Below, in pieces: positions 424-11,315 of a stretch of DNA of 64,000 nucleotides. The notes under the pieces are model-generated. The model made no database searches. It saw only the letters and a list, made by a program, of their open reading frames with translations, and was not told the origin of the DNA. This DNA comes from Caldibacillus debilis DSM 16016 (GTDB taxonomy: Bacteria > Bacillota > Bacilli > Bacillales > Caldibacillaceae), in the NCBI RefSeq assembly GCF_000383875.1, contig NZ_KB912881.1:7793-71792 (forward strand). The letters run 5' to 3'. The position numbers were made by a program, and so were the translations under genes. Position 1 is the stretch's first letter, and every line of letters begins with the position of its first letter.

Positions 424-1962
424 TTAGTTTCCAAACTCCATAACCTTTTTCTTAAAAAACAGAATTATCTTATCTATCTCCTGTATTTTTAACATCTTAA
501 GTAAGAAAATGTAAACTACTAAACTACAAAAAATTGTAAGAAAAAATCTCAAAAACTCATTAAAATCATAAATACTGATAGATCTATAAATCATATACCC
601 CAATATATTGGCTACAACACTCGAAGATATTATCTTCAAAATATAGCTGATACTAATAAGTACTTTATACTGAAAATTTAGCTTTAAGTATGTTTTTAGC
701 AAATATATAAACGAAAAAAACATCCCAATTGTATTAGCAATTGCTATAGATATATGACCAATATGTGGAATTAAAACTACACAAATAATAACAAATGAGA
801 TTACAAAAATAGTAGATGCTATTATTGTATTTTTATAGACTTGATGACTAAACATTAACCTATTAAGGAAGTCTTTTAATACAATAAATACTATACCACA
901 TGCGAAATAAAATAATGCATCAGAAGTCATTATAGTTGCATTTTGATCAAAGGCGCCCCTTTCAAAAATTATCTTTACTACTTCTCTTTTATACATAACT
1001 AATATTGTTATTACTGGAATTAATGATAGGACTATAAATTTAAATGTATTAGTAACAATATTGTTTATGTCGTGAACATTTCCTTTATCCACACTATTAA
1101 TAATTGTTGGATAGCTTGCATTTATGATTGAAGCTCCTACAACAGTCACAGGTAACATAATTAACCTTGTTGCGTAATTCAAAGCTGCAACACTTCCTGT
1201 TTGCATTTGGGAAGCGAAGAATCGAGATATAAGTATACCTAATTGATCCACCAATGTTATTGATAAAATCGGTAGAAACATATAAAATGTACTACTTACT
1301 TCAGACTTAGATAAATTTATATGAAAATAATATCTAAATCCATGTTTTTTTAGTTTTGGATATTGTATAAATAATTGTACAATAGTACCAAATAAATACC
1401 CTATAGCTATTGCATACACGCCGATAGACTTTGAAAATACTATAATAAATACAATTACAATAACATTATTAACTACTGGTAAAAAAGCTGGAATAGTAAA
1501 AGAATTATAGGTATTTAGAATACTCGTTTGCATAAAAGAAAGCGCATAAAATAAGAGAGCAAGAAATAATATTAACGTTAAATGCTGTACCAGTTTTAAG
1601 TTTGATAAATCATTAACAAATATCATCAATATTTGTTTACTAAAAAACATAAAAACAACACCAATACAAAATAAAGATACAAAAATTAAATTTGCAATAC
1701 TACTAATGAAATTCCAAGCTTCTTGCTCACTAGATGAATTTCTTTTCTTTATATAAACAGGAATAAATACCCCAATGAAGATACTACATATTATAGATTG
1801 AAAAAAATTAGGAATTGTACTAGCTATTAAATAAGCATCAATTTCTTTTCCAACCCCTAAAAATGAAGCTACATAGACCTCCCTAAGAAATCCTAACAAA
1901 CTGCTCAAGAAACTTCCAATTAATAACACAAAAGCACTAGATACGATAATATTATTTTTCAT
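424..1962 (-). CDS. MurJ/MviN-type lipid-linked oligosaccharide flippase (Wzx role in EPS export)
   Basis: A 512-residue polytopic membrane protein with about 14 hydrophobic segments. The N-terminus (SSLLGFLREVYVASFLG) is typical of the MurJ/MviN branch of the MOP flippase superfamily, which moves undecaprenyl-linked glycans across the membrane. It is the last gene of a minus-strand polysaccharide cluster, so it most likely flips the EPS repeat unit rather than lipid II. The gene is very AT-rich compared with the core genome, a sign of transfer. The Shine-Dalgarno is weak (AAGAG). A true second MurJ for lipid II cannot be excluded from sequence alone. Confidence 0.8.
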   Translation of the reverse strand: MKNNIIVSSAFVLLIGSFLSSLLGFLREVYVASFLGVGKEIDAYLIASTIPNFFQSIICSIFIGVFIPVYIKKRNSSSEQEAWNFISSIANLIFVSLFCIGVVFMFFSKQILMIFVNDLSNLKLVQHLTLILFLALLFYALSFMQTSILNTYNSFTIPAFLPVVNNVIVIVFIIVFSKSIGVYAIAIGYLFGTIVQLFIQYPKLKKHGFRYYFHINLSKSEVSSTFYMFLPILSITLVDQLGILISRFFASQMQTGSVAALNYATRLIMLPVTVVGASIINASYPTIINSVDKGNVHDINNIVTNTFKFIVLSLIPVITILVMYKREVVKIIFERGAFDQNATIMTSDALFYFACGIVFIVLKDFLNRLMFSHQVYKNTIIASTIFVISFVIICVVLIPHIGHISIAIANTIGMFFSFIYLLKTYLKLNFQYKVLISISYILKIISSSVVANILGYMIYRSISIYDFNEFLRFFLTIFCSLVVYIFLLKMLKIQEIDKIILFFKKKVMEFGN

Positions 1963-2026: not shown

Positions 2027-3049
2027 CTATCTTAAAATCACTCTAGAATAAGCTTCTAATGTTTTACTTGCCACATGATCCCATGTAAAGTTATTTAAAA
2101 TGTGCCATTTTAAGTTCTCATCTTTTTTCTTATTCAAAGAACTTAACACACCTCTTTTTAATGACTCGTAGTCTCGTGGCTTTACATAATCAGCATAATC
2201 CCCAAAATATTCTTTAGTCCCTCCAACTTCAGTTATAACAATTCTTGAACCTGCTAAACCTGCTTCAAGTGCTACTAATCCTGGTGTTTCAAAATCTGAT
2301 GGTAACACTAAAGAATGTGCTGCAGCATAAGCAGATGCAAGAAGGTCATGATCATGATTTAAATGAGGGATGTGTATAATATGTTTACATCTTTGCATAT
2401 AATCATATATACTTTTTGATTTTTTTGTATTCCCCAACTCTCCAATAAGAACTAGTGGAATTTTTTCCTCATAAGCTAATCTTGCTAACAAATCATAATT
2501 TTTTCTATGTGATAGTGTTCCCACACCTAATAAAAAATCTTTTATTCCATACTTCGAATAAAAATAATCTGGATTAGCGTCTTTAAATTTTGTATCAACC
2601 CCATTAGGTACAACAAATATCTTCTCAGGACTTACTCCCCATGCTTTTTGTATATAATTTGCTTCTGCTTTTGAATTTGGTAATATAATCTTAGCTATCA
2701 TTGATAACTTTTTCCCCATTTTATTTGAAGAATATAAATGATTGATTTTATTTAATATTTTATTCTGAAGTCGTAAAAAATACGGATTAATCTCTCTATA
2801 ATAAACTGATGATAATATGACATTTCCACCTTTTCTATGAACAGCTTCCCCTAAATAATACGTTCTTAAATCTGCTCCAAATAGATGGAAGTATTGTAGA
2901 TCTTCACGTTTATATTCCTTCCATTGATCAAATAACTCTACCTTTACACCTTTTTTTTCAAGAGCTTCTTTTGTTTTTATTAACTGAGTATATATTCCGC
3001 CTTTAAAAATAGAAATACTATGAAAACTACCAAATATCACCCGATCCAT
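2027..3049 (-). CDS. Family 4-like glycosyltransferase (GT-B fold)
   Basis: 340 residues. The C-terminal half has the usual GT4 landmarks: VPNGVDTKF at the domain junction, GVGTLSHRKNYDLL, and a donor-binding block LPSDFETPGLVALEAG with the conserved E-x7-E pattern. It would add one sugar of the EPS repeat unit at the cytoplasmic membrane; donor and acceptor cannot be told from sequence. An AAAGGA site precedes the ATG. It lies 64 bp upstream of the flippase in the same direction and shares its low GC content. Confidence 0.8.
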   Translation of the reverse strand: MDRVIFGSFHSISIFKGGIYTQLIKTKEALEKKGVKVELFDQWKEYKREDLQYFHLFGADLRTYYLGEAVHRKGGNVILSSVYYREINPYFLRLQNKILNKINHLYSSNKMGKKLSMIAKIILPNSKAEANYIQKAWGVSPEKIFVVPNGVDTKFKDANPDYFYSKYGIKDFLLGVGTLSHRKNYDLLARLAYEEKIPLVLIGELGNTKKSKSIYDYMQRCKHIIHIPHLNHDHDLLASAYAAAHSLVLPSDFETPGLVALEAGLAGSRIVITEVGGTKEYFGDYADYVKPRDYESLKRGVLSSLNKKKDENLKWHILNNFTWDHVASKTLEAYSRVILR

Positions 3050-3492: not shown

Positions 3493-4572
3493 TTAATCAA
3501 ACACCTTCTTGAACTTATCTTCCTTTTCGACCTTCTTCATATCCGCTTCCACCATAATACGGACTAACTCTTCAAACGGAGTTTTTGTCGGATTCCATCC
3601 CAATAATGTCTTTGCCTTTGTTGGATCTCCTAATAATTGATCCACTTCAGCCGGCCGGAAATATTTCGGATCAACTTCGATTAATACGCGACCGGTGGCT
3701 TTGTCAATCCCTTTTTCGTTTAATCCTTCGCCTTTCCACTCAAGATCAATTCCTGCATATTTAAACGCCAAAGTCGCAAATTCCCGTACTGAGTGCATCT
3801 CTCCTGTAGCTATGACGAAATCTTCAGGAGTATCATGCTGCAACATTAACCACATGCATTCCACATAATCTTTTGCGTATCCCCAGTCGCGAAGGGCATC
3901 CAGATTGCCTAAATATAATTTGTCTTGTTTTCCTTGCGCGATGCGTGCTGCAGCCAAGGTAATCTTACGCGTGACGAATGTTTCGCCGCGCCTTTCTGAT
4001 TCATGGTTAAACAAAATTCCATTCACCGCAAACATTCCGTATGATTCACGATAGTTTTTCGTAATCCAATACGCATAAAGTTTCGCCACACCATAAGGCG
4101 AACGCGGATAAAATGGCGTTGTTTCCTTTTGGGGAACTTCCTGTACCTTTCCAAACAATTCGGAAGTAGATGCTTGATAAATGCGTGTTTTTGCTGTCAA
4201 CCCCAAAATACGTACGGCTTCCAGAATACGCAATGTCCCTAATGCGTCTACATCGGCCGTATATTCCGGCATGTCAAAAGATACGCGAACATGTGATTGA
4301 GCGGCTAAGTTATAAATTTCATCCGGACGAATTTCGCTGATTAAACGTATGACATTGGAGGTATCCGTAATATCACCGTAATGTAAGTGGAAATTTTTAT
4401 TGCGTTTTAACGCATCTGCCTCTTCTTGAGACAGAATATCTTCTAAACGCTCTTGGTTATAGGATGAACTGCGACGAATAATGCCATGTACTTCATATCC
4501 TTTTTCTAGTAAAAACTCGGCTAAGAAAGATCCATCTTGTCCTGTTACCCCTGTAATTAATGCTCGTTTCAT
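3493..4572 (-). CDS. gmd: GDP-mannose 4,6-dehydratase
   Basis: Converts GDP-D-mannose to GDP-4-keto-6-deoxy-mannose, the first step to GDP-L-fucose or related 6-deoxyhexoses. An extended SDR protein of 359 residues. It has an N-terminal NADP-binding [13 protein letters not shown] motif, a STSELFG block with the catalytic Thr/Glu, and the Y-x3-K pair in YGVAK. I chose the ATG at 4572 because GGAGG lies five bases before it; an in-frame ATG 12 bases upstream overlaps that site. It is followed by the remnant of another gmd and preceded by fcl. Its GC content is intermediate between the AT-rich distal genes and the core. Confidence 0.95.
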
Positions 4573-4588
4573 TGTATCCTCCATTTTT

Positions 4589-5539
4589 TTAATTTGTTTG
4601 TCCTGCTACATTTTCTAAGAACCATTGATACACTTTCTGCAAACCTTCATCCAACGAAATGCTTGCTTTCCAGCCTAATGCATTGATCCTTGACACATCT
4701 ACCAGTTTCCGCGGCGTGCCATCCGGTTTTGATGTATCAAATTTTATTTCACCTTGATAGCCAACCACATTTTTTATTTTTTCCGCTAATTCTTTAATCG
4801 AAATATCCTTGCCGACACCAATATTGATAATTTCATTGCCTTCATAGTTTTTCATTAAAAAGATACATGCATCTGCCAGATCATCCGAGTACAAAAATTC
4901 ACGTCTCGGTGTGCCAGTTCCCCATACTTCGACATAGGGAGCATTATTTTCTTTTGCTTCATGGAACTTGCGAATTAATGCCGGTAATACATGAGACGTA
5001 TGTAAATCAAAATTATCATTTGGTCCATATAAATTCGTCGGCATGACTGAAATATATTTCGTACCGTATTGGCGGTTATACGACTGGCACATTTTAATAC
5101 CGGCAATCTTTGCAATGGCATATGGTTCATTCGTTGGCTCCAATTCGCCTGTCAATAAATATTCCTCTTTTAACGGCTGTGGAGCAAATTTCGGATAAAT
5201 ACAAGTGCTTCCTAAGAACAACAGCTTTTTGACACCATTACGATATGCCGCATCAATAACGTTCGTTTGGATCATCAAATTGTCTCGGATAAAGTCAGCA
5301 GGATATTCATTATTGGCAACTATTCCTCCCACTTTTGCCGCTGCGAGAAACACATAATCCGGTTGTTCCCTCTCAAAAAATTCATCCACTTGGTTTTTAT
5401 CCCTTAAATCTAATTCTTTTCTCGTTCTATAAACGAGGTTTTGGTAACCTTTTTCCCTTAACTTCCTCACTATGGCAGATCCTACCAAGCCTCTATGGCC
5501 AGCCACATATATTTTTGAATTTTTTTCCAACTTTTTCAC
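4589..5539 (-). CDS. fcl: GDP-L-fucose synthase (epimerase/reductase)
   Basis: Turns the Gmd product into GDP-L-fucose in two steps using NADPH. 316 residues, the usual family length, with an N-terminal [11 protein letters not shown] nucleotide-binding motif, the GSTCIYPK block and the Y-x3-K pair in YAIAKIAG. The gene lies between the sugar-phosphate transferase (3-bp gap) and gmd (16-bp gap), so it is cotranscribed and probably translationally coupled. The GTG at 5539 follows the previous stop very closely; a TTG nine bases in has better Shine-Dalgarno spacing, so the exact start is uncertain. Confidence 0.95.
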
Positions 5540-5542
5540 CCT

Positions 5543-6235
5543 TTAGTATGCGTTTTTTGACCCAAACAGGACAAAAACAGTCCTTAAAATTAATTTTATA
5601 TCTACTATTAAATTCCTTTCTTGTATATATTTCAAATCAAGTCTTACCCATTCTTCAAACGGAAGACTGTTTCTCCCATATACTTGCCAATAGCAAGTGA
5701 GCCCTGGTCTTACACTTAATCTTTGCCACTCATAAGAAGTATATTGGGCAACTTCTTCCGGGAGTGGCGGCCTTGGTCCCACTAAAGTCATTTCACCTTT
5801 TAATACGTTAAATAATTGCGGCAGTTCATCAATGCTCGTTTTTCTGATGAATCTGCCGACTTTAGTGACTCGCGGATCGTTTTTTATTTTAAATACGGGA
5901 CCTGTCACTTCATTTTGGCTCATCAATTTGGGCTTTAATTCTTCCGCGTTGGCAACCATGGAGCGGAATTTATACATTGTAAATTCTTTTCCGTCTTTAC
6001 CGACCCGAACTTGTTTAAAAATAACGGGCCCATTCCTATCTTCAAGCTTAATTAGTATGGCAACGATAATAAACAAAGGAGACAAAAAAATTATACCAAG
6101 AACGGATAATGCGATATCTAAGATTCTTTTGGTTACTAAATATGCTCTACTATCATTAGGTTTTACTTGTTGAAAGATTAAACTATTTGAATTCTGTTTT
6201 ACGATGGTAGATTCATTAGAAGTTGTCACTTCCAA
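5543..6235 (-). CDS. Undecaprenyl-phosphate sugar-1-phosphate transferase (initiating enzyme)
   Basis: A bacterial sugar transferase of the WcaJ/WbaP/EpsL family that loads the first sugar phosphate onto undecaprenyl phosphate, starting EPS repeat-unit assembly. At 230 residues it is the short form without the extra N-terminal membrane domain. One membrane segment lies at about residues 38-62, followed by the catalytic signatures KFRSM, TSIDELPQL and LVGPRPPLPEE, and RPGLTCYWQVYGRN near the end. The start is a TTG with a distant AAGGA, so a GTG two codons in is possible. It is the first gene after the putative EAR leader. The sugar cannot be predicted safely. Confidence 0.9.
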   Translation of the reverse strand: MEVTTSNESTIVKQNSNSLIFQQVKPNDSRAYLVTKRILDIALSVLGIIFLSPLFIIVAILIKLEDRNGPVIFKQVRVGKDGKEFTMYKFRSMVANAEELKPKLMSQNEVTGPVFKIKNDPRVTKVGRFIRKTSIDELPQLFNVLKGEMTLVGPRPPLPEEVAQYTSYEWQRLSVRPGLTCYWQVYGRNSLPFEEWVRLDLKYIQERNLIVDIKLILRTVFVLFGSKNAY

Positions 6236-6720
6236 TCACAAATCACATCCTTCTTTTTTCTTTTCATTTTCTTGAGCAAAAAATTTTGTTCCTTAGGATA
6301 CCTCATAATTTCTGTTTCCTGTTTTTACTAGTCACTAATTTTTATATTTTCAGGCGCAAACACATCCGTTATTTCAATAAAGCCGAATAAAGCCGAGTTT
6401 TTCTATACCAACCGTTCAGTTTCAAATTTACAGGAGACAGATTCGTTGGACCGGATGAATCCTTGAATAGCTTGATGAGATAAATATTACCGTGTATGAC
6501 TATTTCACATAGCATTTTTTAAAACAACAGATTTTCGAGTATTCCAATTAGCAAATCGATAATCGTAACGTCGGGTTTTTTCATCCGTCGTCCGTCCGAC
6601 ATAAACGATTGATGACAGGATTCACGTTAACCTTATTTTGAAAATTCTTTTAACGACTAAAAAAACCATCAATACTTTAAAAATCTCTTAAAAGAAATAT
6701 GTAAAAATTCACAGATCATC
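6236..6720. other. AT-rich leader segment with no recognisable gene
   Basis: About 480 bases between the second leader hairpin and the sugar-phosphate transferase. It is AT-rich and has no open frame that looks coding on either strand. On the transcribed (minus) strand it would be a long untranslated leader. I see no promoter or protein remnant that I can support. Confidence 0.5.
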
Positions 6721-6721
6721 C

Positions 6722-6776
6722 GATATAAAAAAGGAAATCTGCCCACATTGCCTTTAGAAAAAGGCCAGCAGGGCAG
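6722..6776 (-). terminator. Second leader terminator-like hairpin downstream of the EAR RNA
   Basis: On the minus strand an interrupted stem pairs CTGCCC with GGGCAG and AAAGG with CCTTT, and is followed by a U-rich tail (TTTCCTTTTTTAT). It lies inside the leader of the sugar-transferase genes, where a simple terminator would block the distal operon unless read-through is controlled. Confidence 0.65.
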
Positions 6777-6833
6777 TTTTCTCCCGCAAAACGAACAATG
6801 GACGGACAGGTTGCTTTTCCAAGTATGTATTTT

Positions 6834-6910
6834 TGCGGGAAAAAGAAAGAAGCCATAGATAAACCGGATTGGTTTATGGGCTGGCGCATTAAATCGGTTT
6901 ATCTATGGCT
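6834..6910 (-). terminator. Long leader hairpin immediately downstream of the EAR RNA
   Basis: A near-perfect inverted repeat: AGCCATAGATAAACCG at 6851-6866 pairs with its complement at 6894-6910, with one bulge and a loop of about 20 bases. On the minus strand it is followed by TTCTTTCTTTTTC. It looks like an intrinsic terminator placed just after the structured RNA and before the EPS biosynthesis genes. Confidence 0.7.
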
Positions 6911-6940
6911 CTCAATTTGTGATGTATTTCATTTGGCATG

Positions 6941-7120
6941 ATACACACTCAAACATCGGGCATCGAACCCGCCCTCACGCCACACTATCGACGACGAGCG
7001 TCTAAGGCAGGCAGATCCCTCTGCCGCCCACAGCATGGCCGAGTGCCTCCGTTGATAAAGGTAAGGAGACATCACCCTAAGTGATGTTCGCACCTTCCCA
7101 ACTTCCCCTTCGATTACCCT
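6941..7120 (-). ncRNA. Candidate EAR (eps-associated, epsC-type) antitermination RNA
   Basis: Begins five bases after the ywqE stop and runs about 180 nt on the transcribed strand, GC-rich and highly structured, unlike its AT-rich flank. Visible helices: ACATCAC (7069-7075) with GTGATGT (7081-7087), extended by AAGGT/ACCTT pairing; GGCAGA with TCTGCC (7010-7025); GGGC with GCCC around GGTTCGAT (6958-6974); and a long-range CACTC/GAGTG pairing. From established knowledge, EAR RNAs sit between early eps/cap genes in Bacillales and promote read-through of distal terminators. The position, the length and the two following terminator hairpins fit. I could not run a covariance search, so the family name is inferred. 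Confidence 0.68.
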
Positions 7121-7124
7121 CTGT

Positions 7125-7889
7125 TTAAAAAATTCCAAATAATCTCTTTCTCTTTATCTTTTCCGGAATTTCTTTATATACGGTCTGATTTTCTGCGGCC
7201 AGCCGGCCATTTTCCAAGAAGATTCCAAGGGTGTCCAAGCCGAACTTTTTCTCGATCGCATCGAACGCTTCCGCCATCCGGAAGCCTCGGGAACCGGTAT
7301 TATGGGCGTCGGAAGCGACGAAATGGACCAGATTCGCTTCGATCAGCCGGAAGGAAAAATCCTGGATCTTTTTCCCGAACAGCCCGCAAACGCTGGCGGC
7401 GGTAACCTGGGACAGGGCACCCTTTTCCACCAGATCGTACAGTTTATCCGGCTGCTCGGTCAATTGCTGGTTCCGTTCCGGATGGGCGATGACCGGAACA
7501 TATCCTTTCAATTGCAGTTCGTAAAAAAGACGATCGGTATAGGAAGGGACATGGTTGGAAGGGAATTCGATCAGGAGATACCGGGAATCGTTCAGCGGGG
7601 CGATTTCCCCCGTCTCCAGTTCCTCCGGCAGCTCCCCGAAAATCCGGATTTCCTGCCCGACAGACAAGGAAAGCGGAATGCCTTCGTCCGCAAAAACCGA
7701 ATTCAATTCCGCCGTTTTCTCCGAAACTTTCGATCTCGGATTATCGAAAGCTCGCAATTTATGGTGAGGGGTGACGATGATTTTTTCAATCCCCTCTTTG
7801 ACCGCTTCCCGGGCCATTTCGACGGATTCTTCCAAGCTTTGCGCCCCGTCGTCGACTCCGGGCAGGATGTGGCAGTGGATATCGATCAT
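7125..7889 (-). CDS. ywqE: PHP-family tyrosine-protein phosphatase (YwqE/CpsB)
   Basis: A manganese-dependent phosphotyrosine phosphatase that reverses autophosphorylation of the adjacent kinase and its targets, tuning polysaccharide export. 254 residues with the metal ligands of the PHP fold in order: HCH at residues 5-7, TPHHK near 40, AHPERN near 138, and SDAH near 195. The ATG has a good GAGGGGG site. It is the third gene of the ywqC-ywqD-ywqE module. In B. subtilis the next gene is the UDP-glucose dehydrogenase ywqF; here a structured leader and an unrelated EPS gene set follow instead. Confidence 0.95.
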   Translation of the reverse strand: MIDIHCHILPGVDDGAQSLEESVEMAREAVKEGIEKIIVTPHHKLRAFDNPRSKVSEKTAELNSVFADEGIPLSLSVGQEIRIFGELPEELETGEIAPLNDSRYLLIEFPSNHVPSYTDRLFYELQLKGYVPVIAHPERNQQLTEQPDKLYDLVEKGALSQVTAASVCGLFGKKIQDFSFRLIEANLVHFVASDAHNTGSRGFRMAEAFDAIEKKFGLDTLGIFLENGRLAAENQTVYKEIPEKIKRKRLFGIF

Positions 7890-8040: not shown

Positions 8041-8736
8041 TTAGCTTCCGTAATAATAGTAATAGCTTTGTTTCACTTCTTTTTTATTGTTTAAAATGGC
8101 CCCCAAGAGCTTCCCGTTGGCGGCCAGCAGCAATTCCTTCGCCTTGACCGCGTAATCCCGCTCCGTTTTTCCGCTCGAGACGACAAAAAGGGTCCCGTCG
8201 CAAAGATTGGCCAAGATTTGCGCGTCGGTGACGGCCAAGATCGGCGGCGCATCGAACAGGACATAATCGAAATGTTTCTCCGCTTCCTTCAGCAGGTCGT
8301 GCATCGATTGGGAGGCCAGGATTTCCGCCGGGTTCGGCGGGATCGGGCCGCTCGTCATGACGTATAAATTTTCCACATCCGTCTTTCGGACGGCCTCGAG
8401 GACACTCGCCTGTTTCGTCAAAACATTGGTCAAGCCGATGGTGTTGGTGAACTGGAAGGTGATATGTACGGTCGGTTTTCGCATATCCGCGTCAATCAAT
8501 AACACCCTTTTTCCCTGCTGGGCGAAAACGATGGCCAAATTGGCGATCGTCGTCGATTTCCCTTCCCCGGGCGCGGTGGACGTGACGACGATGGACCGGA
8601 TTTCTTGGTCCACCGCGGAAAACTGGATATTCGTCCGGATCGTCCGGTACTGTTCGGTGATCGGCGATTTCGGATCCTGCTTGGCGATGAGCCCCCTGCG
8701 ATGCTGATGCATGCCTTTTCTTTTTGCCTTCGCCAT
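8041..8736 (-). CDS. ywqD: Bacterial tyrosine kinase (BY-kinase, CpsD/YwqD type)
   Basis: The cytoplasmic kinase half of a two-part BY-kinase; it needs the membrane activator encoded just upstream. 231 residues: Walker A at 55-62 (APGEGKST), Walker A' near 79-87 (LLIDADMRK), Walker B near 151-160 (YVLFDAPP), and a C-terminal tyrosine cluster (SYYYYYGS) that is the autophosphorylation site in the family. It starts two bases after the ywqC stop with a strong AGAGGGG site, so the two are translationally coupled. It should phosphorylate itself and sugar-nucleotide or export enzymes. Confidence 0.95.
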
Positions 8737-8738
8737 GT

Positions 8739-9467
8739 TTAACCCCTCTTTCTGCTGTGCGAACGGCTCTTTATGGTTTGCCCGTTCGCGGAAGATGAAT
8801 CAAAGGTGGAAATGACCCCGAGAACCGGGAGCTCCAAGTATTTTTGGATATCCTCTTCCGTCTTGATCGTATTGTCCAGATATTCCAACAAAAAGGCGAG
8901 CCCGACGCCAAGCATCAATCCGACGACAAAGGCGATCGCCATGTTGAGCAGCGGTTTCGGTTTGACCGGCGTCAATTCTTTCGGCAATTCCGCCTTCGCC
9001 AAAATGCTTACGTTATCCACCTTCATGAGGGAAATGACTTCCCGTTGAAACACTTCGGCGATTTTGTTCGCGATCGTTACCGCCCGCTTCGGATCCTCGT
9101 CTTCCACGGAAACATTGACGACCTGGGAATCCTTTTCGCTTTGCACATTGATCTTTTCCTTCAATTCGTTTACCGACAGATCCAAATCCAGTTCGTCGAT
9201 AACCTTGTCCAGGATTCTCGGGCTGGTGATGATCACATTGTAGGTGTTGACCAGCTGCAGGTTGGCCTGCACTTCGCTTATATTGTAGTATTCATTCGTC
9301 TGCGAGCGGTTCACGAGCAGTTGGGTGGAAACTTGGTAAACGGGGGTGATGAAAAAGTAGCTGATGATTCCTGCAATGGCCGTCGAAAGAAAGGTGATGG
9401 CGAGGATGAGCGCCAGTCTTTTCTTTAGTGTTTCAAATAACTCTTTCAGACTGATTGTTTCTTCCAT
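8739..9467 (-). CDS. ywqC: Wzz-like chain-length regulator / BY-kinase activator
   Basis: Membrane activator of the YwqD kinase and polysaccharide co-polymerase. With the start at 9467 it has 242 residues: a Wzz domain with a first membrane segment at about 18-40, an extracytoplasmic region, the Pro-rich PVKPKPLLN block and a second membrane segment at about 178-202, then a short cytoplasmic tail that touches the kinase. The start is set by an excellent AGGAGG site seven bases upstream; an open frame to 9584 lacks one and is not protein-like. It is the first gene of the EPS operon. Confidence 0.93.
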
Positions 9468-9602
9468 GAAGTCCTCCTGAATCCCAAATTTTTTCCGGAA
9501 CCGGTCAAAAAAACGAATCGGGATCCATGGCCGTTCGCCGGGACATCCTTTTCGTTTTGCCGGCCCTGGGCATTTTGACATCATTTAACAATTCACGACA
9601 TT

Positions 9603-9612: not shown

Positions 9613-10011
9613 TTCTTTTCAAGTTTGTGTTTATTTTAAACTATTTTTATACAAGAATAATGTCATGGGCGGAATTTTCTTCCTTGAATTCTTCCGTAAT
9701 AATAAAACATATTCCTATATTCAGAGACTTATCCTTGCTGCCATCCATGCTATTTGGATAAAATGGCCGTTTGATCGCATTTTCGGGATAGAAAAACCAG
9801 GAAAAATTTAGTACGATACGGATATAAGGCTGCGTTGGCCAAAAACCCTTGCTTCGCCATCGTCCGCTATCATTAATAGAAATCATAGTGAATTTATCGA
9901 ATTTTGGCAAGTCGTATCATGTAAAATTTTCATTAAATTTGCCGCAGGGTATTTTATAAATCGATCAGCCGGCGGTCTTGCGATGCCAAAAATTTGGGAT
10001 GGAGGTTCGAT
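9613..10011. other. Divergent intergenic region without a supported gene
   Basis: About 400 bases separate the EPS operon from the SGNH gene on the opposite strand. An 87-codon open frame on the minus strand (9647-9910) lacks a Shine-Dalgarno and looks like no family I know. The region must hold the regulatory sites of both transcripts, but I see no clear operator. Confidence 0.45.
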
Positions 10012-11047: not shown

Positions 11048-11315
11048 CATTTCGGGAAACTTCCGCACAAACACCGCCGCGGCTTTGTTTCGTTTCTCCG
11101 TGCGCACAAATATCCCAATGATTCGCTGACGGGATTCCATTTCGTCGCACCGCCGGCATCCTTCGGTTGCTTTGCCGGCGGATTTTTGCATATATAATGG
11201 ATATAGATCCGTTTCCGAATCGGTTCGGGCTCCGGCTGCGGTTTCGTCCGGGCGTATAGTTTGGATTTGATCCGTTTCCGATCGTTTTCGAGAAAATGTT
11301 TAAGGTGGTTTGGTC

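Follow-up and report, generated by a model that had tools for sequence, protein, structure and literature searches.

An EAR RNA followed directly by terminator-like hairpins between the regulatory and biosynthetic genes of an exopolysaccharide operon in Caldibacillus debilis

The EAR RNA of Bacillus subtilis lies between the second and third gene of its operon and allows RNA polymerase to pass distal as well as heterologous intrinsic terminators (PMC7858274, PMC10653937; these and all following papers are cited from excerpts), natural intrinsic terminators being passed as well (PMC7858274). The LoaP/dfn leader of Bacillus velezensis provides an experimentally shown checkpoint of RNA hairpin and then terminator (PMC12691694); similarly to the locus described below, a long operon is headed there by a cis RNA hairpin with an intrinsic terminator behind it, both upstream of its first gene. 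Unlike EAR, LoaP/dfn depends on a NusG paralog, LoaP, together with a small UNCG hairpin (PMC12691694); the likeness drawn here is one of arrangement. Further RNAs of processive antitermination are put of phage HK022, conAn2 of pLS20, and canT of Tn916 (PMC8955417, PMC11658703), of which conAn2 acts with the protein ConAn1, while direct action of canT on polymerase is its authors’ suspicion. These three serve phage or conjugative-element operons and are likened to EAR by description only. In the excerpts of PMC10653937, PMC7858274, PMC12691694, PMC8955417, PMC4935679, PMC11658703, PMC5540618, and PMC2864571, a hairpin directly after EAR goes unmentioned; Irnov and Winkler (2010) lies outside this set and may mention proximal terminators. 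In PMC2864571, the epsC section and the excerpts name terminators for crcB and pfl and not for epsC.

The window, by which we mean the whole analysed stretch of 64,000 nt from Caldibacillus debilis DSM 16016, holds a bona fide EAR RNA in an ordinary location (Table 1). The match to RF01735 (epsC/EAR) by cmscan against Rfam reaches 119.3 bits (E 3.3e-20), compared with a gathering cut-off of 42, and spans positions 1-117 of the 117-position model. This score is the fifth-highest in an EAR search of 397 genomes. RF01735 is the sole Rfam match at gathering threshold across the whole window, and no second EAR was found in the assembly (3.06 Mb, 40 contigs, 95%-complete). The RNA lies on the sense strand of an EPS/capsule operon, 3' of the Wzz, BY-kinase, and YwqE genes. 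A first-pass annotation, which had suspected an EAR-like RNA here and proposed a covariance search, was thus right about its identity, but not about its dimensions: it had described a 180-nt segment beginning five bases after ywqE, whereas the RNA matched by the model measures 121 nt and starts 47 nt past the ywqE stop (ywqE ends at 7125). Both the full-length covariance match and the site between kinase-module and biosynthesis genes liken this EAR to those of B. subtilis eps and of Bacillales capsule operons. In contrast to known EAR systems, its client is a GDP-fucose type cassette, GalU is missing, and a 721-nt gap follows the RNA. The putative terminators of the window are proximal, while those described for B. 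subtilis EAR in the excerpts of PMC7858274 are distal.

Table 1. Features of the exopolysaccharide operon in the window, listed in the direction of transcription
Feature	Position	Strand	Evidence
Candidate operon promoter TTGCCA-17-TATGAT, ~300 nt upstream of wzz	9882..9910	-	10/12 matches
Wzz-type chain length determinant / kinase modulator	8739..9584	-	Pfam PF02706, PF13807
BY-kinase	8041..8736	-	Pfam PF13614
YwqE / CpsB phosphatase	7125..7889	-	Pfam PF19567
EAR (epsC) RNA, RF01735, processive antitermination element	6957..7077	-	119.3 bits, complete model
T1: 16-bp perfect hairpin, 28-nt loop, U-rich tail; arms are a dispersed palindrome of the genome	6840..6910	-	Folding, repeat copies
Third hairpin (UUUUUCCCGCAAAA / UUUUGCGGGAGAAAA), without a U tail of its own	6778..6844	-	Folding
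T2: GC-richer intrinsic-terminator-like hairpin with U6 tail	6722..6785	-	Folding
AT-rich spacer, without convincing gene remnant or promoter of at least 9/12	6236..6721	-	tblastn, promoter scan, GC
Priming sugar transferase (Bac_transf)	5543..6235	-	Pfam PF02397
Fcl-type GDP-fucose synthase (putative name fcl)	4589..5539	-	Pfam PF01370
Gmd, GDP-mannose 4,6-dehydratase	3493..4584	-	Pfam PF16363
Group 1 glycosyltransferase	2027..3049	-	Pfam PF00534
MurJ/Wzx-type flippase	424..1962	-	Pfam PF03023

The Pfam assignments place the Wzz, BY-kinase (which we take to be of the YwqD/EpsB type), and YwqE genes upstream of EAR and the sugar transferase cassette downstream, an arrangement that the first-pass annotation had described correctly. 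In the direction of transcription, EAR is followed by T1, a further hairpin, T2, the AT-rich gap, and the genes for the priming transferase, Fcl, Gmd, the glycosyltransferase, and the MurJ/Wzx flippase. The candidate operon promoter comes from a scan whose promoter-like matches were at chance level overall (30 found, 29.5 expected). Beyond window position 1, at 7097-7369 (+) of the window locus (L059), an ORF piece with a Pfam HTH_38 match, presumably from an IS30-type transposase, breaks into the operon behind the flippase gene; another ORF piece close by (L059 7680-7994) is without a Pfam match.

Two U-tailed hairpins lie directly downstream of EAR and before the initiating glycosyltransferase, as had been noted from the sequence. 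The stem of T1 is perfect over 16 bp, with arms at 6895-6910 and 6851-6866 and 28 nt between them, and leads into the U-rich tail TCTTTCTTTTT; with each hairpin folded by itself, the z of T1 is -6.5, and none of 200 shuffles was equally stable. T2 (6785-6732) ends in the six-T/U6 tail TTTTTTATAT and has a z of -3.4, with 2/200 shuffles equally stable. Between the two we find a third strong hairpin that the first-pass annotation had not mentioned (z -4.3; 0/200 shuffles as stable), and which ties up part of T1’s U-rich tail by pairing. Both T1 and T2 have the structure of an intrinsic terminator, namely a stable hairpin with a U-rich tract immediately behind it. A simple consensus terminator scanner for loops of 3-8 nt listed neither of them, the loop limit of 8 ruling out T1; the same scanner gave 18 matches in 14 kb, compared with 17.5 by chance.

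Across the 721 nt from EAR to the transferase, no sigma-A-like promoter with at least 9/12 matches occurs on the same strand, and the best match in a laxer scan is 8. As far as the sequence tells, the start from a promoter inside 6236-6720 that had been named as the alternative to read-through thus finds no promoter of 9/12 or better, which makes read-through from the upstream genes plausible. The AT-rich spacer of ~480 nt could house a promoter for another sigma factor. With T1 and T2 directly behind EAR and no good promoter after it, a checkpoint is the simplest reading. Transcription would start upstream of wzz and run through wzz, the BY-kinase gene, and ywqE to EAR; the folded EAR would modify the elongating RNA polymerase in cis, and the modified polymerase would pass T1 and T2 into the priming transferase-fcl-gmd-glycosyltransferase-flippase genes. 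Where EAR does not work, transcription would mostly stop at T1 or T2 and yield the regulatory module only. The first terminator, set at the antiterminator itself, would then act as a checkpoint, and EAR with a U-tailed hairpin would form a recurrent two-part Bacillales design. We consider it probable that the window carries such an EAR with a built-in first terminator (T1/T2) gating the biosynthesis genes. Antitermination in this organism would be expected by analogy with B. subtilis EAR, and termination at T1/T2 as well as the location of the promoter are what we infer from the arrangement.

A strong U-tailed hairpin after EAR recurs in other genomes. EAR is present in 255 of 397 genomes of the order and in 61 of 398 in a class sample, and we assembled 80 EAR loci, drawn from 78 genomes in 76 genera and including the window locus (genome G000). 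The next gene after EAR encodes EpsC in 42 and GalU in 23 of these loci (65/80 together), and 74/80 have a gene for Wzz, a BY-kinase, or YwqE upstream in the same orientation. The recurrence test took the 75 loci, window included, whose next CDS shares the strand of EAR and starts no fewer than 30 nt from it; as strong we counted a hairpin that folds at -15 kcal/mol or lower and has a U tail ahead of the next gene. Such a hairpin follows EAR in 39/75 loci. The controls were 8/300 for dinucleotide shuffles, 14/75 for reverse complements, and 34/197 for further same-strand spacers from these loci (Fisher). Among held-out loci, of which 39/40 entered and which mostly belong to genera already seen, 23/39 carry one, compared with 6/234 shuffles and 11/39 reverse complements. 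Sense U tails thus outnumber antisense ones by 39 to 14 of 75 and, in the held-out set, by 23 to 11 of 39 (p 0.011). Counted by genus, at least one strong hairpin is found in 36/71, the locus counts not being independent owing to shared descent; 36/75 loci are without a strong U-tailed hairpin. At the same junction of EAR-less loci, 1/16 spacers (from 11 of 13 such loci) reaches -15, compared with the 39/75 in EAR loci. At -12 or better the two are close (7/16 and 41/75), and weaker terminators at this junction are therefore not special to EAR. The post-EAR stems are AU-rich (GC 0.28, compared with 0.50 in 13 terminators between convergent genes), and several loci have a hairpin without U tail (for example L079, L111, L112, L127, L017, L018, L065), from which it follows that termination is not the sole conserved role of the hairpin.

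A number of loci differ in arrangement; for the 25 loci with short flanks and for L007, the reading is by eye alone. In genus g48 (L017, L018, L030, L065), a GC-richer hairpin without U tail stands between EAR and the apparent ribosome-binding site of the next gene, which encodes EpsC in L065. L076, L082, L022, L023, and L038 have, as read by eye, a TATAAT-like box soon after EAR and then what seems to be a different small ORF, and EAR may lie before an independent promoter in these loci. A divergent Wzz gene precedes EAR in L066 (G023; with a BY-kinase gene as well) and in L135 (G545), where EAR would appear to belong to a 5' leader rather than to the interior of the operon. L125, from a GC-rich genome of another order in the same class, has two EAR matches on one strand ~540 nt apart, apparently in tandem (G450:C42, 5107-5222 and 5759-5877; 55.9 and 102.5 bits). 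In L240 (G124), a Bacillaceae-1 RNA (RF01690; 979-1046, -) lies 2 nt upstream of EAR (855-976) on the same strand. A strict EAR pattern run over a collection of named genomes returned one locus, in Rossellomorea marisflavi, the pattern being over-strict.

Two groups of these hairpins are alike in sequence and pairing. The first comprises 12 hairpins with CTAATGAAA-like arms and compensatory change at 14/23 pairs, and the second 14 hairpins with compensatory change at 19/22 pairs. Both alignments derive from loci picked for hairpins, so that the pair counts lean to structure; the control is the blind search with R1, the covariance model of the first group (R2 being that of the second). The R1 hairpin lies outside Rfam’s 117-position EAR model. 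Fifteen of 16 whole genomes, 12 of them seed sources, were matched by R1, with the best site just after EAR in each and three weak sites (E 0.004-0.022) elsewhere in the 16. Over the order, with stricter filters than in the 16-genome search, R1 found 58 distinct sites in 57/397 genomes at E 1e-4. Where an EAR was already listed on the same contig, all 28 sites lie 5-186 nt downstream of it on the same strand; for the remaining 30, an Rfam scan placed an EAR directly upstream of 25 (-1 to 96 nt, median 24). In total, 53/58 sites (41/46 excluding the 12 seed sites) fall within 190 nt downstream of an EAR, which makes the R1 hairpin a good marker of EAR. The five sites without EAR are L258, where the hairpin stands just before a GalU gene and no EAR scores even at E 1, and four sites without any tested EPS gene nearby. 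R1 hairpins mostly finish in a U-rich tail, and they are absent from many EAR loci, for example where the next gene begins 34-36 nt after EAR. Over 96 loci, R1 matched two places not close behind EAR, one being ~880 nt downstream (L037). The other (L117, G332; 11165-11234, -) lies between YwqE and GalU and precedes the EAR of its locus by 3.2 kb, as if EAR and hairpin had been separated. One contig (G108:C10; L243 and L244) has two EARs at a distance of ~6 kb, with a separate R1 hairpin behind each of them.

R2, run on the 80 loci only (1.06 Mb, E 0.1), matched 25 loci including its 14 seeds, with one site each and all downstream of EAR: 21 sites start at 0-120 nt, two at 1 nt before the EAR end, and two at 363 and 452 nt. 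R1 (18) and R2 (25) together mark 43/80 EAR loci without overlap, 26 of these being seeds. Both models are palindromic and therefore also match the opposite strand, which scores higher in L256 and L127. The other genomes of the window’s family with an EAR (G001, G002, G004, G007) have an R1 hairpin 75-92 nt after it, a second EAR of G007 being without. T1 and T2 of the window have no match to R1 (locus at E up to 1, genome at E 0.1, and the order search), nor does the window locus match R2 at E 0.1. We tentatively propose, as a possibility short of an even chance, that in many Bacillales EAR may form one element together with a second part, a co-evolving partner hairpin, one per EAR and mostly <200 nt downstream, which would serve as a dedicated first terminator; the window would show this design with unrelated terminators as partner. 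The partner hairpin has the consensus ~AATAAATATCTAATGAAAG..CATTAGATATTTATTTTT or belongs to the second, structurally similar family. That many Bacillales carry a covarying partner hairpin behind EAR is new, unless the founding EAR paper already describes it. Counting against the checkpoint reading of the window are T1, which has no R1/R2 match and is dispersed in the genome, the AU-rich stems, the untailed hairpins, and the 36/75 loci without a strong U-tailed hairpin.

Membership of T1 in the EAR-linked hairpin families was in fact rejected, T1 being a dispersed palindrome. The genome holds three more exact copies of its 16-nt arm; when up to 2 mismatches are allowed, the arm has 13 genome matches, compared with 5 for a reversed control pattern, and single-arm matches are therefore partly due to chance. 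The pattern GATAAACC-gap-GGTTTATC forms 4 hairpins in the window genome, none in 7 other genomes of the family, and 4 sites in 3/13 further relatives searched. We note that the palindrome (A)GCCATAGATAAACC..GGTTTATCTATGGC with a U-rich flank occurs at 6851-6910 of the window and in the same genome at C1:293114-293182, C28:192-260, C40:116651-116697, and C35:35075-35200; several copies are U-rich-flanked, two lie near the ends of predicted ORFs, and the C28 copy is close to a transposase-like HTH_38 ORF. T1, a small palindrome dispersed in this genome, thus either works as a terminator or has landed here.

The 721-nt distance from EAR to the next CDS is the second longest of 77 loci with a same-strand next gene, and the window is one of four loci among the 80 with a priming transferase directly after EAR. 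GalU, the first gene after EAR in 4/5 other EAR loci of the family, is missing. A GalU or EpsC remnant in the gap was sought by tblastn with the downstream proteins of the 79 other loci and was rejected, the best match (E 0.007) consisting of short, unconvincing pieces. The three genes before EAR have a third-position GC of 0.62-0.72 and the five behind it one of 0.17-0.37, polysaccharide genes being AT-rich in general, and the GC shift (+0.156) ranks second of 78 loci. The transferase-fcl DNA with its leader matches 112/397 genomes, the window’s own included; the best of the others reach 70-72% and belong to other families, and within the family (a sample of 8 genomes) only G007 matches besides the window’s genome. 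None of the listed matches from other genomes reaches the first 562 nt of this query, and the gap sequence is therefore unique among the sampled genomes. At least six genomes from five other families (G071, G170, G254, G259, G324, G366) have the order EAR-GalU-transferase-Fcl; in these, the match over both genes starts 1.1-1.3 kb after EAR, with GalU between. The window looks like this order minus GalU.

The first-pass annotation had proposed here a host RNA governing an imported, foreign cassette. The GC shift and the nearest DNA relatives in other families agree with the import part of that claim and, with a family sample of only 8 genomes, make horizontal import no more than plausible. The arrangement itself is not peculiar to a foreign cassette, EpsC or GalU being next in 65/80 loci and the kinase module upstream in 74/80; with EAR and GalU directly upstream in at least six relatives, this type of cassette is a regular EAR client.

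The same junction could be read otherwise, with T1 and T2 as leftovers of an older operon or of a repeat insertion, the cassette behind having its own promoter and EAR being no longer the control point. GC falls from 0.41 (6800-6701) to 0.24 (6700-6601) per 100 nt at ~6700, right after T2, and this fall is consistent with such a history, as are the missing GalU with its 721-nt gap, the dispersed palindrome in T1, and the transposase-like HTH_38 piece further down the same operon. We nonetheless consider it unlikely, since the gap is without a promoter of at least 9/12, an EAR as well preserved as this one (119.3 bits) would be unexpected without a client, and a U-tailed hairpin after EAR is frequent elsewhere (39/75; 23/39). 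Quite improbable, in our judgement, is that the post-EAR hairpin is an element of RNA stability or processing, which protects the distal mRNA at its 5' end or sets that end, or else a part of the EAR fold used for recruitment or pausing. Long, AU-rich stems would suit such roles; moreover, R1-type arms conserve sequence (CTAATGAAA) besides pairing, several loci are without a U tail, and some hairpins end directly before the next gene. The excess of sense-strand over antisense U tails (39 compared with 14 of 75; 23 compared with 11 of 39), the mostly U-rich tails of R1-type hairpins, and the resemblance of T2 to an ordinary terminator argue against it. That T1 and T2 are chance structures is rejected by shuffle folding (0/200 and 2/200).

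EAR with its own terminator offers a short natural template on which read-through could be measured in vitro, as done for LoaP. If the checkpoint reading is true, the decision point would lie where the regulatory genes meet the biosynthetic ones, and not only at distant terminators, which would give a reason for EAR’s place in the operon; any cassette put behind EAR would inherit the same gate. If, as tentatively proposed above, EAR has a dedicated partner hairpin, transcription would be governed by a polymerase-borne attenuator, with either a default stop at that hairpin or remodelling by EAR and a run through the whole operon.
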